A stretch of DNA of 64,000 nt, from assembly GCF_013266735.1 (NCBI RefSeq), contig NZ_JABSNU010000003.1:124001-188000 (forward strand). Reading direction: 5' to 3'. The number at the start of each line of letters is the position of its first letter. The first letter of the stretch is position 1. The position numbers and the translations under genes were made by a program. Below the pieces are notes generated by a model, which was given only the letters and a program-made list of their open reading frames with translations, was not told the DNA's origin and searched no databases. The stretch comes from Pedobacter foliorum (GTDB lineage Bacteria; Bacteroidota; Bacteroidia; Sphingobacteriales; Sphingobacteriaceae). Shown piece by piece: positions 15,104 through 53,872 of the stretch.

Positions 15104-15175
15104 GGTCCCGTAGTTCAACGGATAGAATAGAAGTTTCCTAAACTTTAGATATGAGTTCGATTCTCGTCGGGACCA
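15104..15175 (+). tRNA. tRNA-Arg(CCT)
   Basis: The cloverleaf reads acceptor GGTCCCG/CGGGACC (7 bp), TA, D-arm GTTC-loop-GAAT with GG in the loop, anticodon arm GAAGT-TTCCTAA-ACTTT (anticodon CCT), 4-nt variable loop, T-arm ATGAG-TTCGATT-CTCGT and discriminator A. CCA is not encoded. Total 72 nt. The T-loop to 3' end is the attachment site of the integrated island that follows, and a copy of that segment marks the right ends. Confidence 0.95.
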
Positions 15176-15177
15176 CT
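15154..15177 (+). repeat. attL core: 3' end of tRNA-Arg
   Basis: These 24 nt (T-loop, T-stem, acceptor strand and two flanking bases) recur exactly at 53837-53860 and with one G-to-A change at 55305-55328. Target duplication in a tRNA 3' end next to a tyrosine recombinase gene is the classic signature of site-specific integration. The tRNA stays intact on the left side. Confidence 0.85.
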
Positions 15178-15423: not shown

Positions 15424-16647
15424 ATGAATGCAAATTATTCTTTGCTTTTTTATCTCAAAAAGCCGAAAAATTATGTACAGGGGAAGCCTAAGCCTATTTA
15501 CATGCGAATTACTGTAGAAGGGATTCCTAAAGAGCTGTCTACTGGTCGTGATTGTGATCCTAAGAAGTGGTCCTCTAGAGTCAATAGAGGTAAAGGTGAT
15601 AGAGAAGATACGAGGCTGCTTAATCGTCACCTGGAGAGCCTAGAAACGCGGATCGAAGAAATTCACACACGGTTGATAAGAGAGGGTGTCAAAATAACTG
15701 CCCAGGTGATTAAGAATAGGTATTTGGGAGTTGCCGATAAACCGCATTATTTGATGGAAGTTTTTGCTGATCACAATGCAAAAATTGAAGCGTTAATAGG
15801 TAAGGGTTTTAAGCAGAATACACTTAAAGGATATAAAACTTCTTTTTCCCATATGAGTTCTTATCTGCTGAAATGCTATAAGAAGCCTGATGTTGAAGTA
15901 TGTGTTGTCGATTATGCTTTTGTGAATGGATATGAGTTTTATCTCCGCTCAGATAAGGGTTGTTGTCCAACAACTGCTGCTAAGTATATGGTGCATTTTC
16001 AAAAAATTACAAACCTGTGCTTGGCCTTCCGTTGGATTAGAGAAGACCCTTTTGTTTTCTACAAGAATACAGCTCAGGCTAAAGAGAGAGAATATCTGAC
16101 CCAGGAGGAGTTAGATATGGTTGCCCAAAAACATTTTGGTATTCAAAGACTTGCCCAGGTACGTGATATATTTGTTTTCAGCTGCTATACTGGACTTGCT
16201 TACATAGATGTGAAAAAGCTTCGCCATACAGATCTTAAGACAGGTTTAGATGGTAATCTGTGGATTTTTACTGATCGGGAGAAAACGGGATCGATAACTC
16301 ATATTCCACTTATGAGTAGGGCCATTGATCTGGTCGATTGTTACAGTGTTCACCCGGAATGTGTCAATAAAGGGCTTATGTTTCCTGTGTTAAGCAATCA
16401 AAGAATGAACAGCTACCTGAAAGAAATAGCCGATGTGTGCGGGATCACCAAATCTTTAACTTTTCATATGGCGCGCCATACTTTCGCTACGACCGTAACC
16501 TTGAACAATAATGTACCAATTGAAACAGTATCTAAAATGCTTGGTCATAAGAGTATTAAAACGACACAACATTATGCGAAAGTTCTTGATTTAAAAGTCG
16601 GGAAAGACATGGCTTTGCTAAACCAGAAATATGGAAGAGGGAAATAG
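15424..16647 (+). CDS. Tyrosine recombinase, Bacteroidota element integrase
   Basis: 407 aa. Domains: N-terminal arm DNA-binding domain (about 1-95, YMRITVEGIPKELSTGRDCD), SAM-like core-binding domain (about 105-215) and C-terminal catalytic domain (about 225-400). Catalytic residues visible are HMARHTFATT (H-x-x-R), LGHKSIKTTQHYAKV (His and the Tyr nucleophile). The first catalytic Arg region reads SCYTGLAYIDVKKL, with Ala where many families have Arg, as in many Bacteroidota element integrases. It lies 247 bp from the tRNA, reading away from it, and presumably integrates and excises segment A at tRNA-Arg(CCT). It may also move the other segments in cis. Confidence 0.9.
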   Translation: MNANYSLLFYLKKPKNYVQGKPKPIYMRITVEGIPKELSTGRDCDPKKWSSRVNRGKGDREDTRLLNRHLESLETRIEEIHTRLIREGVKITAQVIKNRYLGVADKPHYLMEVFADHNAKIEALIGKGFKQNTLKGYKTSFSHMSSYLLKCYKKPDVEVCVVDYAFVNGYEFYLRSDKGCCPTTAAKYMVHFQKITNLCLAFRWIREDPFVFYKNTAQAKEREYLTQEELDMVAQKHFGIQRLAQVRDIFVFSCYTGLAYIDVKKLRHTDLKTGLDGNLWIFTDREKTGSITHIPLMSRAIDLVDCYSVHPECVNKGLMFPVLSNQRMNSYLKEIADVCGITKSLTFHMARHTFATTVTLNNNVPIETVSKMLGHKSIKTTQHYAKVLDLKVGKDMALLNQKYGRGK

Positions 16648-21652: not shown

Positions 21653-22057
21653 ATGACAGTAACAGTATCAGCCATGATCAATCAGTATGATAAAATAAAA
21701 AGGAATAAAGGAGGACGCCCCAAAGTATCACTTAAAAGAGCTGCTTCTCTTACAGTGATGTGTAATCTCATTGAAAAGAAACTAATTCAACTTAACGCCA
21801 GAAAACTGAACCTCAGCGCCTCGGTCTATCTTCGGGAGCTTGGCTTAAAAGGTGCTGTTAAGGTAAAATTGAAAACCCTCCCAAAAGAGGTACTTCAATT
21901 TACCGGTACCCTAAATCACATGGCGGCCAATCTCAACCAGATTGCCCGCAAGCGCAATTCGGGAGAAGACCTAAATGCAAAGGACAGGGCTTTGATCAAT
22001 CAGGAAGTCAGGGCCGTTCAAAAGCTTGTGGAAGAAGTAGAGGTCTATTTAAAATGA
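21653..22057 (+). CDS. MobC-like relaxosome accessory protein
   Basis: 134 aa (Met8 at 21674 is an alternative start). The N-terminus is basic (KIKRNKGGRPKVSLKRAAS), followed by a ribbon-helix-helix-like segment (NARKLNLSASVYLRELGLKG) and the MobC signature (GTLNHMAANLNQIARKRNSG). MobC proteins bind oriT and help the relaxase nick DNA. The stop overlaps the relaxase start by 4 nt, so they are co-translated. It lies directly after the candidate oriT. Confidence 0.8.
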   Translation: MTVTVSAMINQYDKIKRNKGGRPKVSLKRAASLTVMCNLIEKKLIQLNARKLNLSASVYLRELGLKGAVKVKLKTLPKEVLQFTGTLNHMAANLNQIARKRNSGEDLNAKDRALINQEVRAVQKLVEEVEVYLK

Positions 22058-22887
22058 TTGGGAAAATAGCCACTGGTAAAAGCTTTCGGGGTTGCCTTGG
22101 CTACCTGCATGAAGGGAGACTACAGGAGAGCAAAGAACTGCAACTTGAAGAAATGGCCAAGAAGCAGGCTGACGTAATTCATTACAACAACTGTTTTGGC
22201 ACTAGGAAACAGGTGGTCAGACAACTGGTGGCAGTAAGTAAACTTAATCCAAAGCTGGCAAAGCCTGTATTTCATGCTTCACTGAGCTTTGCCTACGGCG
22301 ATGCGGCCTTGCTGACCAAACAGCAGAAGGCAGACATCGCCATAGCAATGGCGGAAGAATTTGGATTTGATCAGAATCAGTTTGTTGTCATTAGCCATTC
22401 TGATACCCTTCATGAGCATATCCACATTGTGGCTAATCGGGTCGGTTATGATGGCAAAACCGCCAGCGATAGCAACAGCTATAAGCGAATGGCGCAATTT
22501 TGCCGGAAAATCGAGAAGTTATATAATTTAACTCCTGTCCTAAGTCCTAACCGTTTTTTGCAAGCCGAGAAGCGGGTGGCAAAAGCCAAAAGGATAGACA
22601 ACCGAAAGGAATTACTCAAAAAGACATTAGTATGGGCTATTAGCAAATCCACGTCCATTGAAGCGGTAAAAGCCAGAATGGAAAAACGAGGTTACCAGGT
22701 AGAACTGAGTAGGGGCATCGCCTTCACCGACAAAAAGCAAGTCAGGTTCAAGGGGAGTGAAGTAGGGTACAGCCTCGCAAATATCAACGCTCAGCTTAGC
22801 CGTCAGCTCAAGATTGCTGAGCAGCAAATACAGCAGGATAAAGCGGAAGAACTAGAGCGCAAGCAAACTAAGGGATTATCAATTTAA
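22054..22887 (+). CDS. MOBP-type relaxase/mobilisation nuclease
   Basis: 277 aa, short for a relaxase, with only the nuclease domain. Seen: N-terminal MIGKIATGKSFRGCLGYLHE with a candidate Tyr nucleophile (Y27 in GCLGYLHE), and the three-His metal motif in HSDTLHEHIHIVANRV. It nicks one strand at oriT to start transfer. There is no helicase or type IV secretion gene in the window, so the element would be mobilizable with help from a conjugative element (IME), not self-transmissible. The C-terminal part is helical and basic. Confidence 0.85.
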   Translation: MIGKIATGKSFRGCLGYLHEGRLQESKELQLEEMAKKQADVIHYNNCFGTRKQVVRQLVAVSKLNPKLAKPVFHASLSFAYGDAALLTKQQKADIAIAMAEEFGFDQNQFVVISHSDTLHEHIHIVANRVGYDGKTASDSNSYKRMAQFCRKIEKLYNLTPVLSPNRFLQAEKRVAKAKRIDNRKELLKKTLVWAISKSTSIEAVKARMEKRGYQVELSRGIAFTDKKQVRFKGSEVGYSLANINAQLSRQLKIAEQQIQQDKAEELERKQTKGLSI

Positions 22888-23574: not shown

Positions 23575-23668
23575 AATCAATAGAGCCCATAGCGGTTGTA
23601 TGACCTGTTAGACTTAGTGAGTACATTTTTGTCTCACCCTACGGCTGTACAAGCAGCCTCTTTAATGT
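23575..23668 (-). ncRNA. Candidate Cas12f-type guide RNA: scaffold 3' half plus guide
   Basis: Minus-strand, starting at the stop of the Cas12f-like gene. Seen in order: hairpin GGCTGCTTGTACAGCC (23658-23643), a spacer, a stem GTGAG/CTCAC (23637-23633 / 23621-23617) around an 11-nt loop, then CTAAGTC...GGTCATACAAC ending at 23595. Known Cas12f guide scaffolds, as I recall them, have the same order: a GGCTGCTTG...CAGCC hairpin, a pseudoknot stem, then a 3' end in GCAAC right before the guide. The next 20 nt, CGCTATGGGCTCTATTGATT (23594-23575), would be the guide. The 5' part of the scaffold probably overlaps the end of the coding region; the 5' limit is unknown. Function is inferred from structure and position. 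Confidence 0.6.
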
Positions 23669-23670
23669 TG

Positions 23671-24768
23671 TTATTCTATGATGACCTGAATCCCTGCTTT
23701 TTCTGCTTTATAGTTGATTTTATCTTTCAAACTGAAGTAGCTCCAGTTTTGTAGCAGAAAAGGATCTTCTTTGGCAATTTCTTCTTTTTGCTGTTGATTG
23801 ACCAGGATCAGGGTGGCTGCATGGTACTTTACGCAAAGGTCTATGAGTTTGCGGCTGTACACATGTAATTTATAGTCCACATATCTTTTTTCCAAATCCT
23901 GGTACTCCTCCAGGCTTTTTCTTTTTCTCTTTTTTCCGTGTCCGCCCCGGTTAAAGGGGGTGCCTTTTTTTACCCTTTCTATGGCTGCCCGTATCGCTAG
24001 CCTGCGGTGGAGAAACTCTTCCTTATTTCCAATGCTGAGTTCGTAGCTGCCGATTTTGACGGTTACCGGGTGTTCTATGGAAAGTGAGGCTTCGGCAATG
24101 ACGGAAGTATCCAATATATGTTGTTCTTTCTCTAGCCCGATCGCTGCTAATAAAAAGACTTTACCCTGATCGATATAGAGCTTACTGGTATGGAGTCTTA
24201 GCGTTCCGCTTTTTATCTTGTTCAATAGTGCCTTTTTATCTGATCTGTCTTTTCCAAGATAGGTCCTGAAGGGGATCTGGAACAATTTGAAGCTGAAATT
24301 CTTGTTATCCGGTGTGGTATCGAATCTGGTGATGACTTCTGATCCAAAAGGGAGCGGGAGGTTTTTCTTATAATTACTCAGTGATTTCTCTCCTTTCCAG
24401 TAGGCAGCCTTCTCGTTGTTGAAATGGGAAATCAGGCTATGGTTTAAATTGCTGAGGATATTGGTAGGGATCTGTCCCTTGAAATGATTGGAGAGCAAAC
24501 GGTAAGTGGTATTTGGCCGGGAAGATTTCAGGATGCCTTTTTCATCTTTCTTCTGATCAGCCAGTTTAAGTTTGATCTCTTCGGTAAGGTAGAAGAAGTC
24601 TTTGACCTGCTGCTGGATGAAATGATGGCTCATGATCAGATTGGCGGCGCGGAAACAAATCCGCTGCCAGCTGTACAACTGATCTTTTGCGGCTTTGATC
24701 ACTTCTTTGTCGTCGGAATCAATCAGCAGCTGGATCTTACGGGTAAGAATCATCGTGTCTTTTTCCAT
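23671..24768 (-). CDS. Nuclease-dead Cas12f/TnpB-family RNA-guided DNA-binding protein
   Basis: 365 aa. The N-terminal half matches the Cas12f/TnpB wedge/REC layout: MILTRKIQL, LYSWQRICFRAANLIMSHHF, then ISHFNNEKAAYWKGEKSL and YKKNLPLPF. The RuvC half includes ELSIGNKEEFLHRRLAIRAA, the basic bridge RGGHGKKRKRK and NWSYFSLKDKINYKAEKAGI, which in TnpB precedes the zinc ribbon. The RuvC-I motif, normally G-h-D-x-G, reads LSIEHPVTV; the RuvC-II Glu position reads ILVNQQ; the protein stops at QVIIE, so zinc ribbon and RuvC-III are absent. It should therefore bind but not cut DNA. It starts 4 nt after the sigma-factor stop. No transposase or IS ends are next to it. Alternatives: TldR-type repressor, or a decayed TnpB; the intact reading frame and sigma partner argue against decay. 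Confidence 0.75.
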   Translation of the reverse strand: MEKDTMILTRKIQLLIDSDDKEVIKAAKDQLYSWQRICFRAANLIMSHHFIQQQVKDFFYLTEEIKLKLADQKKDEKGILKSSRPNTTYRLLSNHFKGQIPTNILSNLNHSLISHFNNEKAAYWKGEKSLSNYKKNLPLPFGSEVITRFDTTPDNKNFSFKLFQIPFRTYLGKDRSDKKALLNKIKSGTLRLHTSKLYIDQGKVFLLAAIGLEKEQHILDTSVIAEASLSIEHPVTVKIGSYELSIGNKEEFLHRRLAIRAAIERVKKGTPFNRGGHGKKRKRKSLEEYQDLEKRYVDYKLHVYSRKLIDLCVKYHAATLILVNQQQKEEIAKEDPFLLQNWSYFSLKDKINYKAEKAGIQVIIE

Positions 24769-24772
24769 AGCG

Positions 24773-25576
24773 TTAGTTTTTTACTTTGGTATAGGCTTGC
24801 ACAAAACTTCTTTTGATGTGCTCTGGACTTAAATTTAAGGCTCTGGCGATCTCTTCAAAACTGTATTGGAGTTCATAGCGCATGTGCAGGATACTGGATT
24901 GTTCTTTGTCCAGATCGCCTTCGAATTGGAATTTGCTGGTTTTTCCTGCAGTCTCGAGTTTCCCGGAACTGGTTAGGATGGACTTTAGTGTTTCCAGTGT
25001 TTTTTCCACGGTTCGGGCTACCTGATAATCTGAAATGCCGCCAATGTGCCAGGCAATGCGTTCATAGTTGAAAGCGTATTTTAGGCAAAGCTTGATAAAT
25101 AATTGCTGGTTTTCGGTAAGATTGGGTATGACCACTTCAACTTGTCGCCATTGTTGCTTTAGGCGCTCATCGAGTTCTTCCTGGTAGATGACCTCATCTG
25201 GACCCAGTGCTTCTTCAGGACTACAGCCCGCCATGAATTCTTGGTAATTTTCGATCTCATCAAGCCTGAGCATATTCCGCTGGAAGTTATGCTTAGAGGT
25301 TCTGTAGAAGGCTTTGCATGCCTCGAATGTGGTATCAAGGAGAAAGGTTTGGATGTGCTTTGGGTCGGTGATGCTACTTCTGATCAACCAAAGCCGTAGA
25401 AAGGCTTCGTTAACGATGCAGTCCGCGTTGATATCATCTTTAATGTACCTTTTTCTTTTATGGTATAAAGAAGGGTAAAAGCGATTGTAAAAATACTCCA
25501 AACCTTTTTCATCGCCCTGGCTGAATTTGAGAAAATTACGGTGTTCGTCCTTGATCTTATAACTGATAAAGTTCAT
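24773..25576 (-). CDS. ECF-type sigma factor with two sigma-4-like domains
   Basis: 267 aa, longer than the usual 170-200 aa of ECF sigma factors. Sigma-2 is at about 25-95 (FYNRFYPSLYHKRKRYIKDD, then ADCIVNEAFLRLWLIR). A first sigma-4-like HTH is at about 145-202 (IPNLTENQQLFIKLCLKYAF); a second similar segment is at about 221-265 (LDKEQSSILHMRYELQYSFE, then EIARALNLSPEHIKRSF). No anti-sigma gene is adjacent. Translation is likely coupled to the Cas12f-like gene. In Bacteroidota, nuclease-dead Cas12f proteins linked to ECF sigma factors have been reported to recruit RNA polymerase through a guide RNA; this pair fits that arrangement. That the second HTH binds the Cas12f-like protein is speculation. 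Confidence 0.75.
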   Translation of the reverse strand: MNFISYKIKDEHRNFLKFSQGDEKGLEYFYNRFYPSLYHKRKRYIKDDINADCIVNEAFLRLWLIRSSITDPKHIQTFLLDTTFEACKAFYRTSKHNFQRNMLRLDEIENYQEFMAGCSPEEALGPDEVIYQEELDERLKQQWRQVEVVIPNLTENQQLFIKLCLKYAFNYERIAWHIGGISDYQVARTVEKTLETLKSILTSSGKLETAGKTSKFQFEGDLDKEQSSILHMRYELQYSFEEIARALNLSPEHIKRSFVQAYTKVKN

Positions 25577-25599: not shown

Positions 25600-25800
25600 T
25601 ATTATGAGTCGTAAACGGAGTTAACGCTAAATGGCGTGGAGCTCAATTTATCGTACTGGAGGTACTGGTATACCCGGGACACGACAAAAAGAGCCCACGC
25701 CATTTTAGCGTGAGCATCTTCACCGTCGTCTTGTGTCCTTTCGAATTACCAGTTTTCCAGTACAAGACTCTAGTGTAATGCTTCCAATATCATTTTAGAA
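25600..25800 (-). ncRNA. Structured leader/possible second non-coding RNA upstream of the sigma gene
   Basis: Minus-strand RNA from about 25800 holds three pairings. A: GTACTGGAAAACTGG (25767-25753 region) with CCAGTACCTCCAGTAC. B: GGACAC...CGAC with GTCGTGTCC, nested in A. C: CACGCTAAAATGGCGTGG, in the loop of B, with CCACGCCATTTAGCGT downstream, making a pseudoknot; each C strand can also fold alone. Such order (A-B-C-B'-A'-C') resembles a guide-RNA or riboregulator fold more than a simple leader. It could be a 5' UTR controlling the sigma operon, the 5' part of a guide system, or a transposon-end relic. The gap 25577-25916 has no gene. Confidence 0.5.
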
Positions 25801-25806
25801 GAATTA

Positions 25807-25814
25807 CAAAAATA
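25807..25814 (-). promoter_or_regulatory. Putative -7 box of the sigma/Cas12f-like operon
   Basis: Minus-strand TATTTTTG matches TAnnTTTG and would start transcription near 25800, at the 5' edge of the structured leader. A good -33 box is not visible. Confidence 0.4.
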
Positions 25815-28271: not shown

Positions 28272-28595
28272 TTAACACCATTCGATTTTTCCGTTGGTAA
28301 CAAAAAAATGACTTTTGCATCCGACCAATCGATTTATGGATGGAGCCAAGGAAATCACTTTTCCGTCGAGTATATAATTCCAATATGGATCATAATCATC
28401 CATTAAGTTCATATGTAACAATTTTCTACAGCCACATGGACAAATCATCACAGCCTGCCAATAGTAACCTTGATTGCCAATCAGATAAACTGTATAAGGA
28501 CTAGTTTTATCTGGTATATCATCTGCGAATTCATACTTATACAGCTTCTCCCTATGGAAAAGCTGTATAAACCAATCAAATATCTTTCTTAACAT
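28272..28595 (-). CDS. DUF6527-like small zinc-binding-type protein of the Ubl operon
   Basis: 107 aa. Cysteines C52, C54, C56 (MICPCGCRKLLHM), C93 (VGCKSHFFVT) and terminal C107, with H96, suggest a structural zinc site. The order CxCGC, then SLAPSIN, then CxSHFFVxNGKIEW matches DUF6527 as I remember it. It starts 20 nt inside the end of the JAB-E1 gene, so it belongs to the same operon. In ubiquitin-like systems small treble-clef or RING-like proteins can act as E3s or adaptors; that role is a guess. Confidence 0.7.
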   Translation of the reverse strand: MLRKIFDWFIQLFHREKLYKYEFADDIPDKTSPYTVYLIGNQGYYWQAVMICPCGCRKLLHMNLMDDYDPYWNYILDGKVISLAPSINRLVGCKSHFFVTNGKIEWC

Positions 28596-29970
28596 CGCTT
28601 AACTCTGCATTATTTAACAAGGGAGCTACATCGCCCTTGCCAACAAGTTTTGAAAAAAATGGGCACGTATCCGTAATCTTATCCGGATAGGAAGTCGCGT
28701 CAGCGAAATCAATCTTAATTGCATCGATTTCCGAATTATCCTGATTTCTATAGGGATGGATTCTTGCAAGAAAATCATTAATCGCCGTAGCTGCAACCTG
28801 CATATTGATACTGATTACTGCCGGATGAGATTCATTTACATTTGCCAGATATTGATTTCTTTCATATTCTGCTCTATCAGTACGGTTGATAGATTCTGCA
28901 CGCAATCTTTCAATACTATACTGCTGTCTGCTCAATAAACTTGACCCCCCTGGCTGGATATAATGAACCGTTCCAAATATATTCTTAATACCACCTTCAC
29001 CATCGGCATTTAACTTAACGCCCATATCTATAAAAGGAATTACATAAAATGATGAGATCAAATTAAGAATATGCCTACCTTCTGCACCATCTACACAGCT
29101 AATGAGAAAATCACATTCAGCAAGTTCTTTGACCACTTCCCGGCTGGAAATATGAGTAGCAAAAGTTATGACTGTAGTGCCCATCCCTACTTCGACTATA
29201 CCTCTTTTCATAACATCAACCTTCATAGCCTTTTGAGCCGCGTCAGCTTGAGTCGACCCAATAATTCTGTTGAGGTTTACTGTATCCGTAAAATCCGGAT
29301 CAACCAACACTAAAGTACCTACTCCTAAGCGTTTCAACTGTTCAATTACGGGGCTGCCCGTACCAGAACAGCCAACTACGCCAACTTTCATGGTATTTAA
29401 CATATGGACAGTTTTCTTCCCGAATGCCTGGAGATTACGACGTTGGTACTCATCGGATATACCAGAAGCCGAATTATCATAATTCCAGTTCTCCACATTG
29501 CTCCCAGCTACAGAGATCTTATGAACAACCTCAATCTCCATTTTATGGTTGAAAAATCGTCCGAATAATCGTCCGTCAGGCAACATGATACAACTTGCAT
29601 GTGGCAGATCATCATCAATCCATGCATTTATACTTTTGAATAAACGATAATCAGACTCATTATCCAAATCAGAAAAAAACTCGTGGACACCAGGTCCTGG
29701 GTGGCAATGGATCTTAACAAGTGCTAGTTTATGCTTTGCCGCTTTTTCCAAAAAGGGGTTAATCACATCCGTCGGCCAGCGAACATAATCACCTTTACGT
29801 TCGCAAATATCATGCGGAACCAATAGCAAGTCTTGAACGACTAAAGTATGGTTATTTCCATGGACACTACGGCCACATAATGCGACCGCGACAGCTTCCT
29901 TGTTATCTCCAGGAAATAAATGCTGCTTCAACTGCTGGTAGTGAAAGCCAGCTAATCGTATTTTGTTCAT
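28576..29970 (-). CDS. JAB (JAMM) metalloprotease-E1 (ThiF) fusion
   Basis: 464 aa. N-terminal about 1-150 is a JAB/MPN domain with Glu25, H88-x-H90 (KIHCHPGPG), S100 and D103, the full JAMM zinc site, used for deubiquitinase-like cleavage. About 180-464 is a ThiF/E1-like adenylating domain: nucleotide loop VVGCSGTGSP (199-208), Asp224 (VLVDPDF), N232-R235 and a Lys-containing helix (QKAMKVDVMKRG). It would adenylate the C-terminus of a ubiquitin-like protein, and the JAB domain would trim or release it. The gap to the upstream Ubl-E2 gene is 2 nt. Fused JAB-E1 proteins are known from bacterial ubiquitin-like operons. Confidence 0.85.
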   Translation of the reverse strand: MNKIRLAGFHYQQLKQHLFPGDNKEAVAVALCGRSVHGNNHTLVVQDLLLVPHDICERKGDYVRWPTDVINPFLEKAAKHKLALVKIHCHPGPGVHEFFSDLDNESDYRLFKSINAWIDDDLPHASCIMLPDGRLFGRFFNHKMEIEVVHKISVAGSNVENWNYDNSASGISDEYQRRNLQAFGKKTVHMLNTMKVGVVGCSGTGSPVIEQLKRLGVGTLVLVDPDFTDTVNLNRIIGSTQADAAQKAMKVDVMKRGIVEVGMGTTVITFATHISSREVVKELAECDFLISCVDGAEGRHILNLISSFYVIPFIDMGVKLNADGEGGIKNIFGTVHYIQPGGSSLLSRQQYSIERLRAESINRTDRAEYERNQYLANVNESHPAVISINMQVAATAINDFLARIHPYRNQDNSEIDAIKIDFADATSYPDKITDTCPFFSKLVGKGDVAPLLNNAELSDVKKDI

Positions 29971-29972
29971 AG

Positions 29973-31157
29973 CTATCTAGTTATATCCTTTACCAACCAA
30001 TTGTCCACCAAACATAAATGCGTAGCAATGTTATCCACTCCTGGACGCCATTCTCCCGGCTTGCGATGTCTGGACCACCCTTGAAAGTTCTTGCCATCTA
30101 TCACTTGGTCAAAAACATTATTAATTGTCCTTCCTGAGACCTTAATAAGGGATGGGTGAAAATAAGCCATATCAATTTCAGCGGCAGGATAATGAGAAGA
30201 AATCAGCAAAGCGACCTCAGCTTTTTGGACATTGTACCCTACAGGGATAGGATAATCATGGATCATAACCCACATGCCTGGTTGATTGGCAATGGCCTCC
30301 CAAAGGAGGCCAAGGTTATCTAAAAATTCAATATCTTCTTCGGGCAATGTAAAGTCTCTTCTGATCTTTACGGTTTCTTCAACTGGCTCTTCCTGAATAT
30401 GATCATCAGATAAACCATCTTCCTGTTCTTTTGGCTGAATAGTAAATCTTACTAGACATTTTTCAGTAAGATCGACCATCTCATCAGGCTTAAGCTTAAT
30501 AGGCTTAGGACTGGTATTAAGAAACTTATAGACCTCTACAGGTTTGGTATTATTTGGATATTCAAATTCGATTAGTTGAGGGACTGTAATATACCTCTTA
30601 GGCCAAGTATGATACCCTTTATCTACTTTTATCCGATACAGTTTAGCTGGGGGAACAGGCTTGCATTGTTTACCATATTCTTCAATATCAACCAAATCTT
30701 GCCATTTTCCGGAAATGAAATCCATACCGGTACAAATCATTTTAATAGGCTGGCTCGGATTGTCAGCATAACTGACATTTCCCACAGTCAAAACTTGGAT
30801 CAAATAATGATTGTTAGGGTTGATACCTTTCGCTAATAAAATCTGATGAGCTGTTAGTTCAGATTTATCAGTCATCTCGGGTTCATTGTCGACGTTATAA
30901 TGGAAGACATCAGGCCCCTTGGTTGTAAAACGTTCAATTCCAGGATTAGATAAATCAATAGCCTGATCAAGTGACACCTTTTCGAAGTCACATCCTTTCA
31001 ATTTTTGATACAGCGTATGGCATTGTAAATGCTCAAAGCCTGCTGCTGTTAAAATTTCAGCACCAGTATTTAGGGCTTTATAAACGGCTATTTCTATTTC
31101 ATTAACTATAGCTATGTAAACTTTTGGCTTTACTGGACCATTTTTTTCTTCTTGCAT
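29973..31157 (-). CDS. Fusion of three ubiquitin-like domains with an E2-like domain
   Basis: 394 aa. Three beta-grasp-like segments: about 12-79 (VYIAIVNEIEIAVYKALNTG, ending DLSNPGIERFTTK), about 85-150 (ELTAHQILLAKGINPNNHYL) and about 172-243 (KPDEMVDLTEKCLVRFTI). These match the multi-ubiquitin family. An acidic linker leads to a prokaryotic E2 family E-like domain, about 267-394 (MWVMIHDYPIPVGYNVQKAE, then HPSL and WRPGVDNIATHLCLVDNWL). The only Cys in the E2 domain is in THLC near the C-terminus, not just after the HP motif, so catalysis would be non-canonical. No domain ends in Gly-Gly. First gene of the operon; no clear promoter box precedes it. Confidence 0.8.
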   Translation of the reverse strand: MQEEKNGPVKPKVYIAIVNEIEIAVYKALNTGAEILTAAGFEHLQCHTLYQKLKGCDFEKVSLDQAIDLSNPGIERFTTKGPDVFHYNVDNEPEMTDKSELTAHQILLAKGINPNNHYLIQVLTVGNVSYADNPSQPIKMICTGMDFISGKWQDLVDIEEYGKQCKPVPPAKLYRIKVDKGYHTWPKRYITVPQLIEFEYPNNTKPVEVYKFLNTSPKPIKLKPDEMVDLTEKCLVRFTIQPKEQEDGLSDDHIQEEPVEETVKIRRDFTLPEEDIEFLDNLGLLWEAIANQPGMWVMIHDYPIPVGYNVQKAEVALLISSHYPAAEIDMAYFHPSLIKVSGRTINNVFDQVIDGKNFQGWSRHRKPGEWRPGVDNIATHLCLVDNWLVKDITR

Positions 31158-53736: not shown

Positions 53737-53872
53737 ATAGCAATTGCAGCTAAAACGTATTCAAAAAAGTGAGTTATTCGATGAGTGCTAATTTTAACCA
53801 TTTGTAATTCATTGAAAATATGATGGTTATCCGGAAAGTTCGATTCTCGTCGGGACCACTTACTTTGCCACC
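53737..53872 (+). repeat. Right-end att block of segment B
   Basis: Holds ATAGCAATTGCAG, GTGAGTTATTCGATGAGT and ATTCATTGAAAATATGATGG in the same order as 32568-32690. It ends in a perfect 24-nt copy of the tRNA-Arg 3' end (53837-53860). The following TACTTTGCCA is shared with the copy at 55305-55338. This is a complete attR-type junction for an element that entered tRNA-Arg(CCT). Confidence 0.8.

Follow-up and report, generated by a model that had tools for sequence, protein, structure and literature searches.

A predicted guide RNA encoded beside a putatively nuclease-dead Cas12f and sigma factor gene pair in Pedobacter matches a predicted structured leader in front of susCD genes

The window, a 64,000-nucleotide stretch of the Pedobacter foliorum genome (the host genome, G000), carries the gene of a predicted nuclease-dead Cas12f (dcas12f), an adjoining sigma factor gene and a predicted guide RNA. 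We propose that the three together serve the RNA-guided activation of leader-bearing susCD operons, a reading to which we give a probability of about 0.78. The guide matched, at 16 of 17 positions, a predicted leader located before susCD genes, and for this reason the complex would likely switch these genes on, the activity proposed for a recently solved relative. The presence of a natural guide–target pair of a likely RNA-guided activator in one genome makes its regulon directly testable. The features concerned are the following, in window coordinates:

15104..15176, plus strand: tRNA-Arg (cct), likely attachment site of a mobile element
15424..16647, plus strand: tyrosine recombinase (phage integrase family)
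21653..22887, plus strand: NikA-like/MobC protein and MobA/VirD2-type relaxase
23575..23594, minus strand: guide, CGCTATGGGCTCTATTG(ATT), of which the first 17 nt match targets (sequence, target searches)
23595..23601, minus strand: ATACAAC handle at the scaffold end (sequence; the same handle recurs before the guides of many relatives)
23614..23660, minus strand: guide-RNA scaffold with two covarying hairpins (exact pattern match, covariation, covariance model)
23671..24768, minus strand: dcas12f, 365-aa Cas12f-like protein lacking the catalytic residues (ORF, homology, alignment, predicted fold)
24773..25576, minus strand: ECF-type sigma factor, 267 aa, with a sigma stretch (26–200) and a C-terminal region-4-like stretch (222–266) (ORF, profile matches)
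25606..25770, minus strand: structured leader element preceding the sigma gene, in a shorter version that the model matches weakly (28.2 bits)
25807..25814, minus strand: TATTTTTG, a -7-like box (TAnnTTTG), separated by 44 nt from the leader element downstream (sequence; putative promoter role)
53837..53860, plus strand: exact 24-bp copy of the 3' end of the tRNA (15154–15177), candidate far end of the mobile element

The dcas12f product was identical at 198 of 363 positions to the dCas12f of PDB entry 9n9c (residues 2–364, E 2.9e-131). This match, a second copy of the gene in the host genome (80% identical, both copies being open) and the relatives found elsewhere indicate that the gene pair is real and not a chance occurrence. 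The catalytic columns were assigned through an alignment to active Cas12f and through the RuvC motifs of the family, and are presumed positions. On this assignment, the catalytic Asp of RuvC-I (ASLSIEHPVTV) is replaced by Ser228, and the Glu of RuvC-II by Asn324. Among 37 aligned homologs, hand-picked out of 120 listed protein matches, column 228 held S in 30, A in six and T in one, and column 324 held N in 35, G in one and D in one; Asp and Glu, respectively, were never observed. The last residue, Glu365, was invariant in the 37 sequences, 24 of which were covered by the ten commonest C-terminal hexamers, all stopping at this residue. Active Cas12f runs further (chain 9nzr aligned up to residue 416 of 508, tag included), and since these 24 homologs end at Glu365 while the active enzyme continues, RuvC-III and the zinc ribbon are, by alignment, absent. 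The protein has lost its cutting residues and is accordingly predicted to be nuclease-dead. An earlier sequence-only reading of this DNA had described two same-strand genes 4 nt apart, a RuvC-I reading LSIEHPVTV without its Asp, an Asn in place of the RuvC-II Glu and the loss of RuvC-III and zinc ribbon, and all of these descriptions held. It had also proposed a structure prediction as a check, and the predicted fold matched Cas12f.

The sigma factor, encoded 4 nt from dcas12f, was homologous to the RpoE chain of 9n9q over residues 17–266 (E 9.8e-38). Its sigma-2 region had been called intact in the sequence-only reading. That call was borne out in part: the TIGR02937 sigma70-ECF profile matched residues 26–200 at 4.2e-19, but Pfam Sigma70_r2 reached 16 bits, under its cut-off of 24. 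The Sigma70_r4 profile was over its cut-off. On the identity to the dCas12f of 9n9c and the sigma match to the RpoE of 9n9q, the locus is assigned by homology to the known dCas12f-sigma RNA-guided transcription systems. Both proteins are homologous near full length to their counterparts (dCas12f in 9n9c, 9n9m, 9n9o and 9n9q; RpoE in 9n9q), and the locus has a scaffold, a guide and in-genome targets. The earlier proposal of an RNA-guided system made of a nuclease-dead Cas12f and an ECF sigma factor is therefore well founded.

The guide RNA had been missed in that proposal and is, as predicted here, encoded beside dcas12f. The scaffold starts with GAGGCTGCTTGTACAGCCGTAGGGTGAG..., 10 nt past the dcas12f stop codon, and is followed by the handle and by a stretch that varies among relatives. 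Pairing-keeping changes on both sides were observed in seven of 13 scaffold pairs across 24 sequences. The window scaffold scored 70.6 bits against the scaffold covariance model, of which it is itself a member. The model matched 16 of 148 genomes, namely 14 of the 15 with dCas12f and two of the 133 others, one clearly (G043) and one weakly (G058, E 0.0032). In the sole dCas12f genome lacking a match (G036), the contig seems to break off at dcas12f. Because 13 of the 14 scaffold-positive dCas12f genomes contributed sequences to the model, the telling evidence is the independent find in G067, absent from the input and still detected at 2.7e-12, together with the near absence of the scaffold elsewhere. 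In relatives, a locus holds one to eight scaffold units. The guide RNA would be transcribed and bound by dCas12f. Some scaffolds (L004/L159 in G006 and L156 in G043) are followed by more than one unit made of ATRCAA[CT] and a guide-like stretch, resembling a small array.

A G followed by nucleotides 1–17 of the guide was searched in the 6.08-Mb host genome. The G requirement was taken from the known system, which reportedly uses a 5'-G target motif and has susCD targets. Two non-self sites, identical to each other, were found at one mismatch (16/17), where about 0.01 would be expected by chance from our own arithmetic. Three further sites had three mismatches, and the backwards control gave one match. 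The full 20-nt guide, allowing up to three mismatches, found only itself; the similarity ends at nucleotide 17. Both one-mismatch sites lie inside dyad-rich structured elements of 205–220 nt. The first element is located 206 nt upstream of a SusC-type TonB receptor gene, behind which lie genes for SusD and for a thioredoxin-like protein; the second precedes an ORF of 63 aa as well as a DUF6624 gene. The guides of the second dcas12f copy had one one-mismatch site behind a G, within a reading frame, and the corresponding backwards control gave three matches within two mismatches. An element of another genome (G083) was matched by the window's guide at 17 of 17 positions.

The two target elements belong to a structured family, for which a covariance model of 36 pairs was built from eight copies, the two G000 targets being themselves among these inputs. 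At least 55 of the 148 genomes were matched (the filters were stricter, making this a lower bound), all of the genus Pedobacter and with up to 15 copies per genome. In 54 aligned matches, 92.3% of the cells paired, compared to 80.9% in shuffled and 36–44% in slid alignments, two-sided changes affected 26 of the 36 pairs compared to 16.4, and none of 500 shuffles reached any of these measures, in an alignment that was fitted to the structure, holds the eight founders and so leans toward pairing. Three copies compared to Rfam gave nothing at or near the gathering score. The motif TAnnTTTG is the Bacteroidetes -7 element. A box of this type was present within 75 nt upstream of 15 of the 34 elements that do not precede small ORFs (2.7 expected), in none of the 18 copies grouped as preceding such ORFs, and, as a similar box, inside 32 of 52 copies (2.0 expected). 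The element is probably a transcribed leader. We examined 40 element regions: the full set of 13 non-sigma elements from the dCas12f genomes outside G000, plus 27 that were chosen by hand. The two elements of G000 were added to these. Of the 15 non-sigma elements of dCas12f genomes, 12 had, on their own strand and no further than about 2.4 kb downstream, a TonB-receptor gene that was SusC-type by Pfam in all twelve, with one or two ORFs in between in some cases; the other three had no such receptor gene downstream. Many of the copies examined from genomes lacking dCas12f lay before small ORFs, mostly at 25–32 nt (61 and 82 nt in two cases), and three representatives of these ORFs had no significant Pfam match. 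Other copies from such genomes (L113, L116 and L118) precede ORFs that, as read from the sequence, are susC-like. Since the leader family is wider than dCas12f (55 versus 15 genomes), it did not arise for the dCas12f system. It stands before susCD operons and small genes in many Pedobacter genomes, and the guides home on one spot of it.

This convergence was seen with 27 guides read by their handle, the window's included; a few of them may not be genuine guides but handle-like words, and scaffolds whose handles fell outside the search words contributed none. Eleven matched one of 52 elements at 14 or more of 17 positions behind a G, all on one strand and at element positions 88–101. Shuffled guides averaged about 10.7 against the elements and never scored above 15; one of the eleven guides, scoring 14, was below the 15 reached by the best of its 40 shuffles. 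The other 16 guides had no match of at least 14 behind a G in the collected elements. When the G was not required, 12 of the 27 matched, 11 of these at positions 91–101, and a G preceded the match in 10 of the 12 compared to a background of 0.30. Within nine genomes, six of 22 pairs of guide set and element reached 14, compared to three of 440 shuffles. As the best score was only 10 in seven of these 22 pairs, and as 31 of 194 cross-genome pairs also reached at least 14, the matches are not strongly genome-specific and point to the element family more than to the copies of the particular genome. In genome-wide searches, the best non-guide match of a G002 guide was a susCD-linked element. One G006 guide had two non-guide matches at three mismatches, one of them an element, and another had no element match in its own genome.

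Leader-like elements are also located upstream of the sigma genes in several relatives. When the leader of the window's own operon served as a DNA query, only the two sigma-gene leaders reached a good E-value, which is why the covariance model was built from other copies. The local guide did not match the window's sigma-gene leader (11/17), and autoregulation of the operon by its own guide is unsupported. A second leader type, with AGCCTCG...GAGGCT ends, was recognised by eye upstream of sigma genes in L003/L033, L006 and L012, with the same layout. A G006 guide matched the type-2 leader of L012 at 16 of 18 positions behind a G, and six other guides tried scored 12 or less. In G032, a genome with no dCas12f match, a structured element (L109) precedes an ORF whose sequence reads like an ECF sigma gene.

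In the mechanism that we propose, dCas12f and its guide RNA would bind and open the DNA inside the structured leader, the sigma factor would bring RNA polymerase to the opened DNA, and the susCD nutrient-uptake operon behind the leader would be transcribed. Activation, the recruitment of polymerase by the sigma factor and the opening of the leader DNA are all expectations of this model. The 3' arm of the leader's central hairpin falls within the protospacer. In the known system, transcription is said to start at a fixed distance from the R-loop; a start site past the protospacer would yield a transcript without the 5' arm, escaping whatever the leader does. We tentatively consider, as a possibility well short of an even chance, that the cassette bypasses the leader in this way by firing from inside it, its transcripts being freed from the control of the hairpin, and that, with an array of guides, a single cassette could take control of numerous leader-bearing susCD operons in a new host.

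The position of the protospacer, within the element and downstream of the -7-like boxes described above, suits an opposite effect as well, as a complex bound downstream of a possible promoter might just as well stop transcription. Sitting inside the leader, dCas12f would in that case block polymerase arriving from a nearby upstream promoter, in the manner of TldR proteins, which PMC13418256 describes as RNA-guided repressors, and the sigma factor would act elsewhere. We regard such repression as unlikely: it leaves unexplained the 4-nt linkage to a sigma factor whose homologue was deposited together with dCas12f in 9n9q. An effect at the RNA level is less probable still. The guide is of the same sense as the 3' arm of the leader, two partly complementary partners of the matched arm could be found by eye, and the leader structure is strongly conserved, so that a guide RNA pairing with the 5' arm or with a downstream copy might alter the folding of the leader with no DNA binding. 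This would not account for the G found in front of the match in 10 of 12 guides, as for a DNA target motif, or for a predicted protein fold that is the one of DNA-binding Cas12f complexes.

The least probable reading, to which we give hardly any weight, is that guide and leader resemble each other only by shared ancestry of a decaying element and that the gene pair is a functionless remnant. Decay does exist: G002 has broken dCas12f copies, one with four in-frame stops and two split, next to one intact copy (L017–L022), and G043 has scaffolds without dCas12f. Against a remnant stand the two open dcas12f copies of the host genome, the compensatory changes kept in scaffold and leader, and the replacement of the same residues in all 37 homologs.

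Compared to the dCas12f-gRNA-RpoE complex of 9n9c, 9n9m, 9n9o and 9n9q, the likeness extends to a 365-aa dCas12f, a sigma homologue, lost RuvC residues and a guide RNA. The entries 9n9c and 9n9m were released on 2025-12-24, and no paper on the dCas12f-sigma system was among the literature matches listed. New here, in a comparison drawn from PDB names and titles, are the guide, its same-genome targets and the covarying leader family in which the protospacers lie; a further difference is the number of scaffolds per locus in relatives, up to eight. CRISPR-Cas12f (type V-F) nucleases such as Al3Cas12f (9nzr) and AsCas12f (8j12) differ by their RuvC catalytic residues, RuvC-III and zinc ribbon, all missing here, and by a repeat-spacer array in place of mostly tandem whole scaffolds; a nuclease identity was rejected on the missing residues and zinc ribbon. 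TldR is likewise a nuclease-dead RNA-guided regulator from TnpB/Cas12 stock, whereas the present protein is closest to Cas12f, is paired with a sigma factor and is expected to be an activator.

On one side, dcas12f is flanked by the tRNA-Arg and the genes of the integrase, the NikA-like protein and the relaxase; on the other, the tRNA end recurs as an exact 24-bp copy at 53837. The locus therefore likely lies in a mobilizable element of about 38.7 kb that has integrated here, in agreement with the sequence-only reading. Since the gene set lies on this likely mobilizable element, the guide would move along with it and, in a new host, engage leaders that are already there. If this is true, RNA guides allow an element that passes from strain to strain to rewire genes of nutrient uptake, and the role of the leader itself becomes a testable question. 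The defence cargo attributed to the element stands as a candidate only: multiubiquitin, prokaryotic E2, ThiF-type E1 and DUF6527 genes are located at 28272–31157, the ThiF protein had partial PADLOC E1-E2 matches, and the group is a candidate for ubiquitin-like conjugation with a possible defence role.

dCas12f was detected (E <= 1e-20) in 15 of the 148 genomes searched, G000 included, all of them Pedobacter, and the protein databases also held relatives in Mucilaginibacter. Pedobacter sp. V48 has a locus at 92% identity, whose DNA is common with G002. In G043, the scaffolds of L156 (G043:C45:164595 and 164939) had no dCas12f gene in the 17 kb read; they adjoin genes of 86 and 104 aa like those of the window's mobile element, and one of their guides resembles a leader target. 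The leader element is multi-copy in G012 (15 copies) and G087 (11 copies), two genomes with no dCas12f match (e.g., L092–L108). These copies are often located about 25–32 nt before small ORFs of 91–148 aa and have about 60 nt of upstream DNA in common; in these genomes the element may be an independent unit, either mobile or regulatory.
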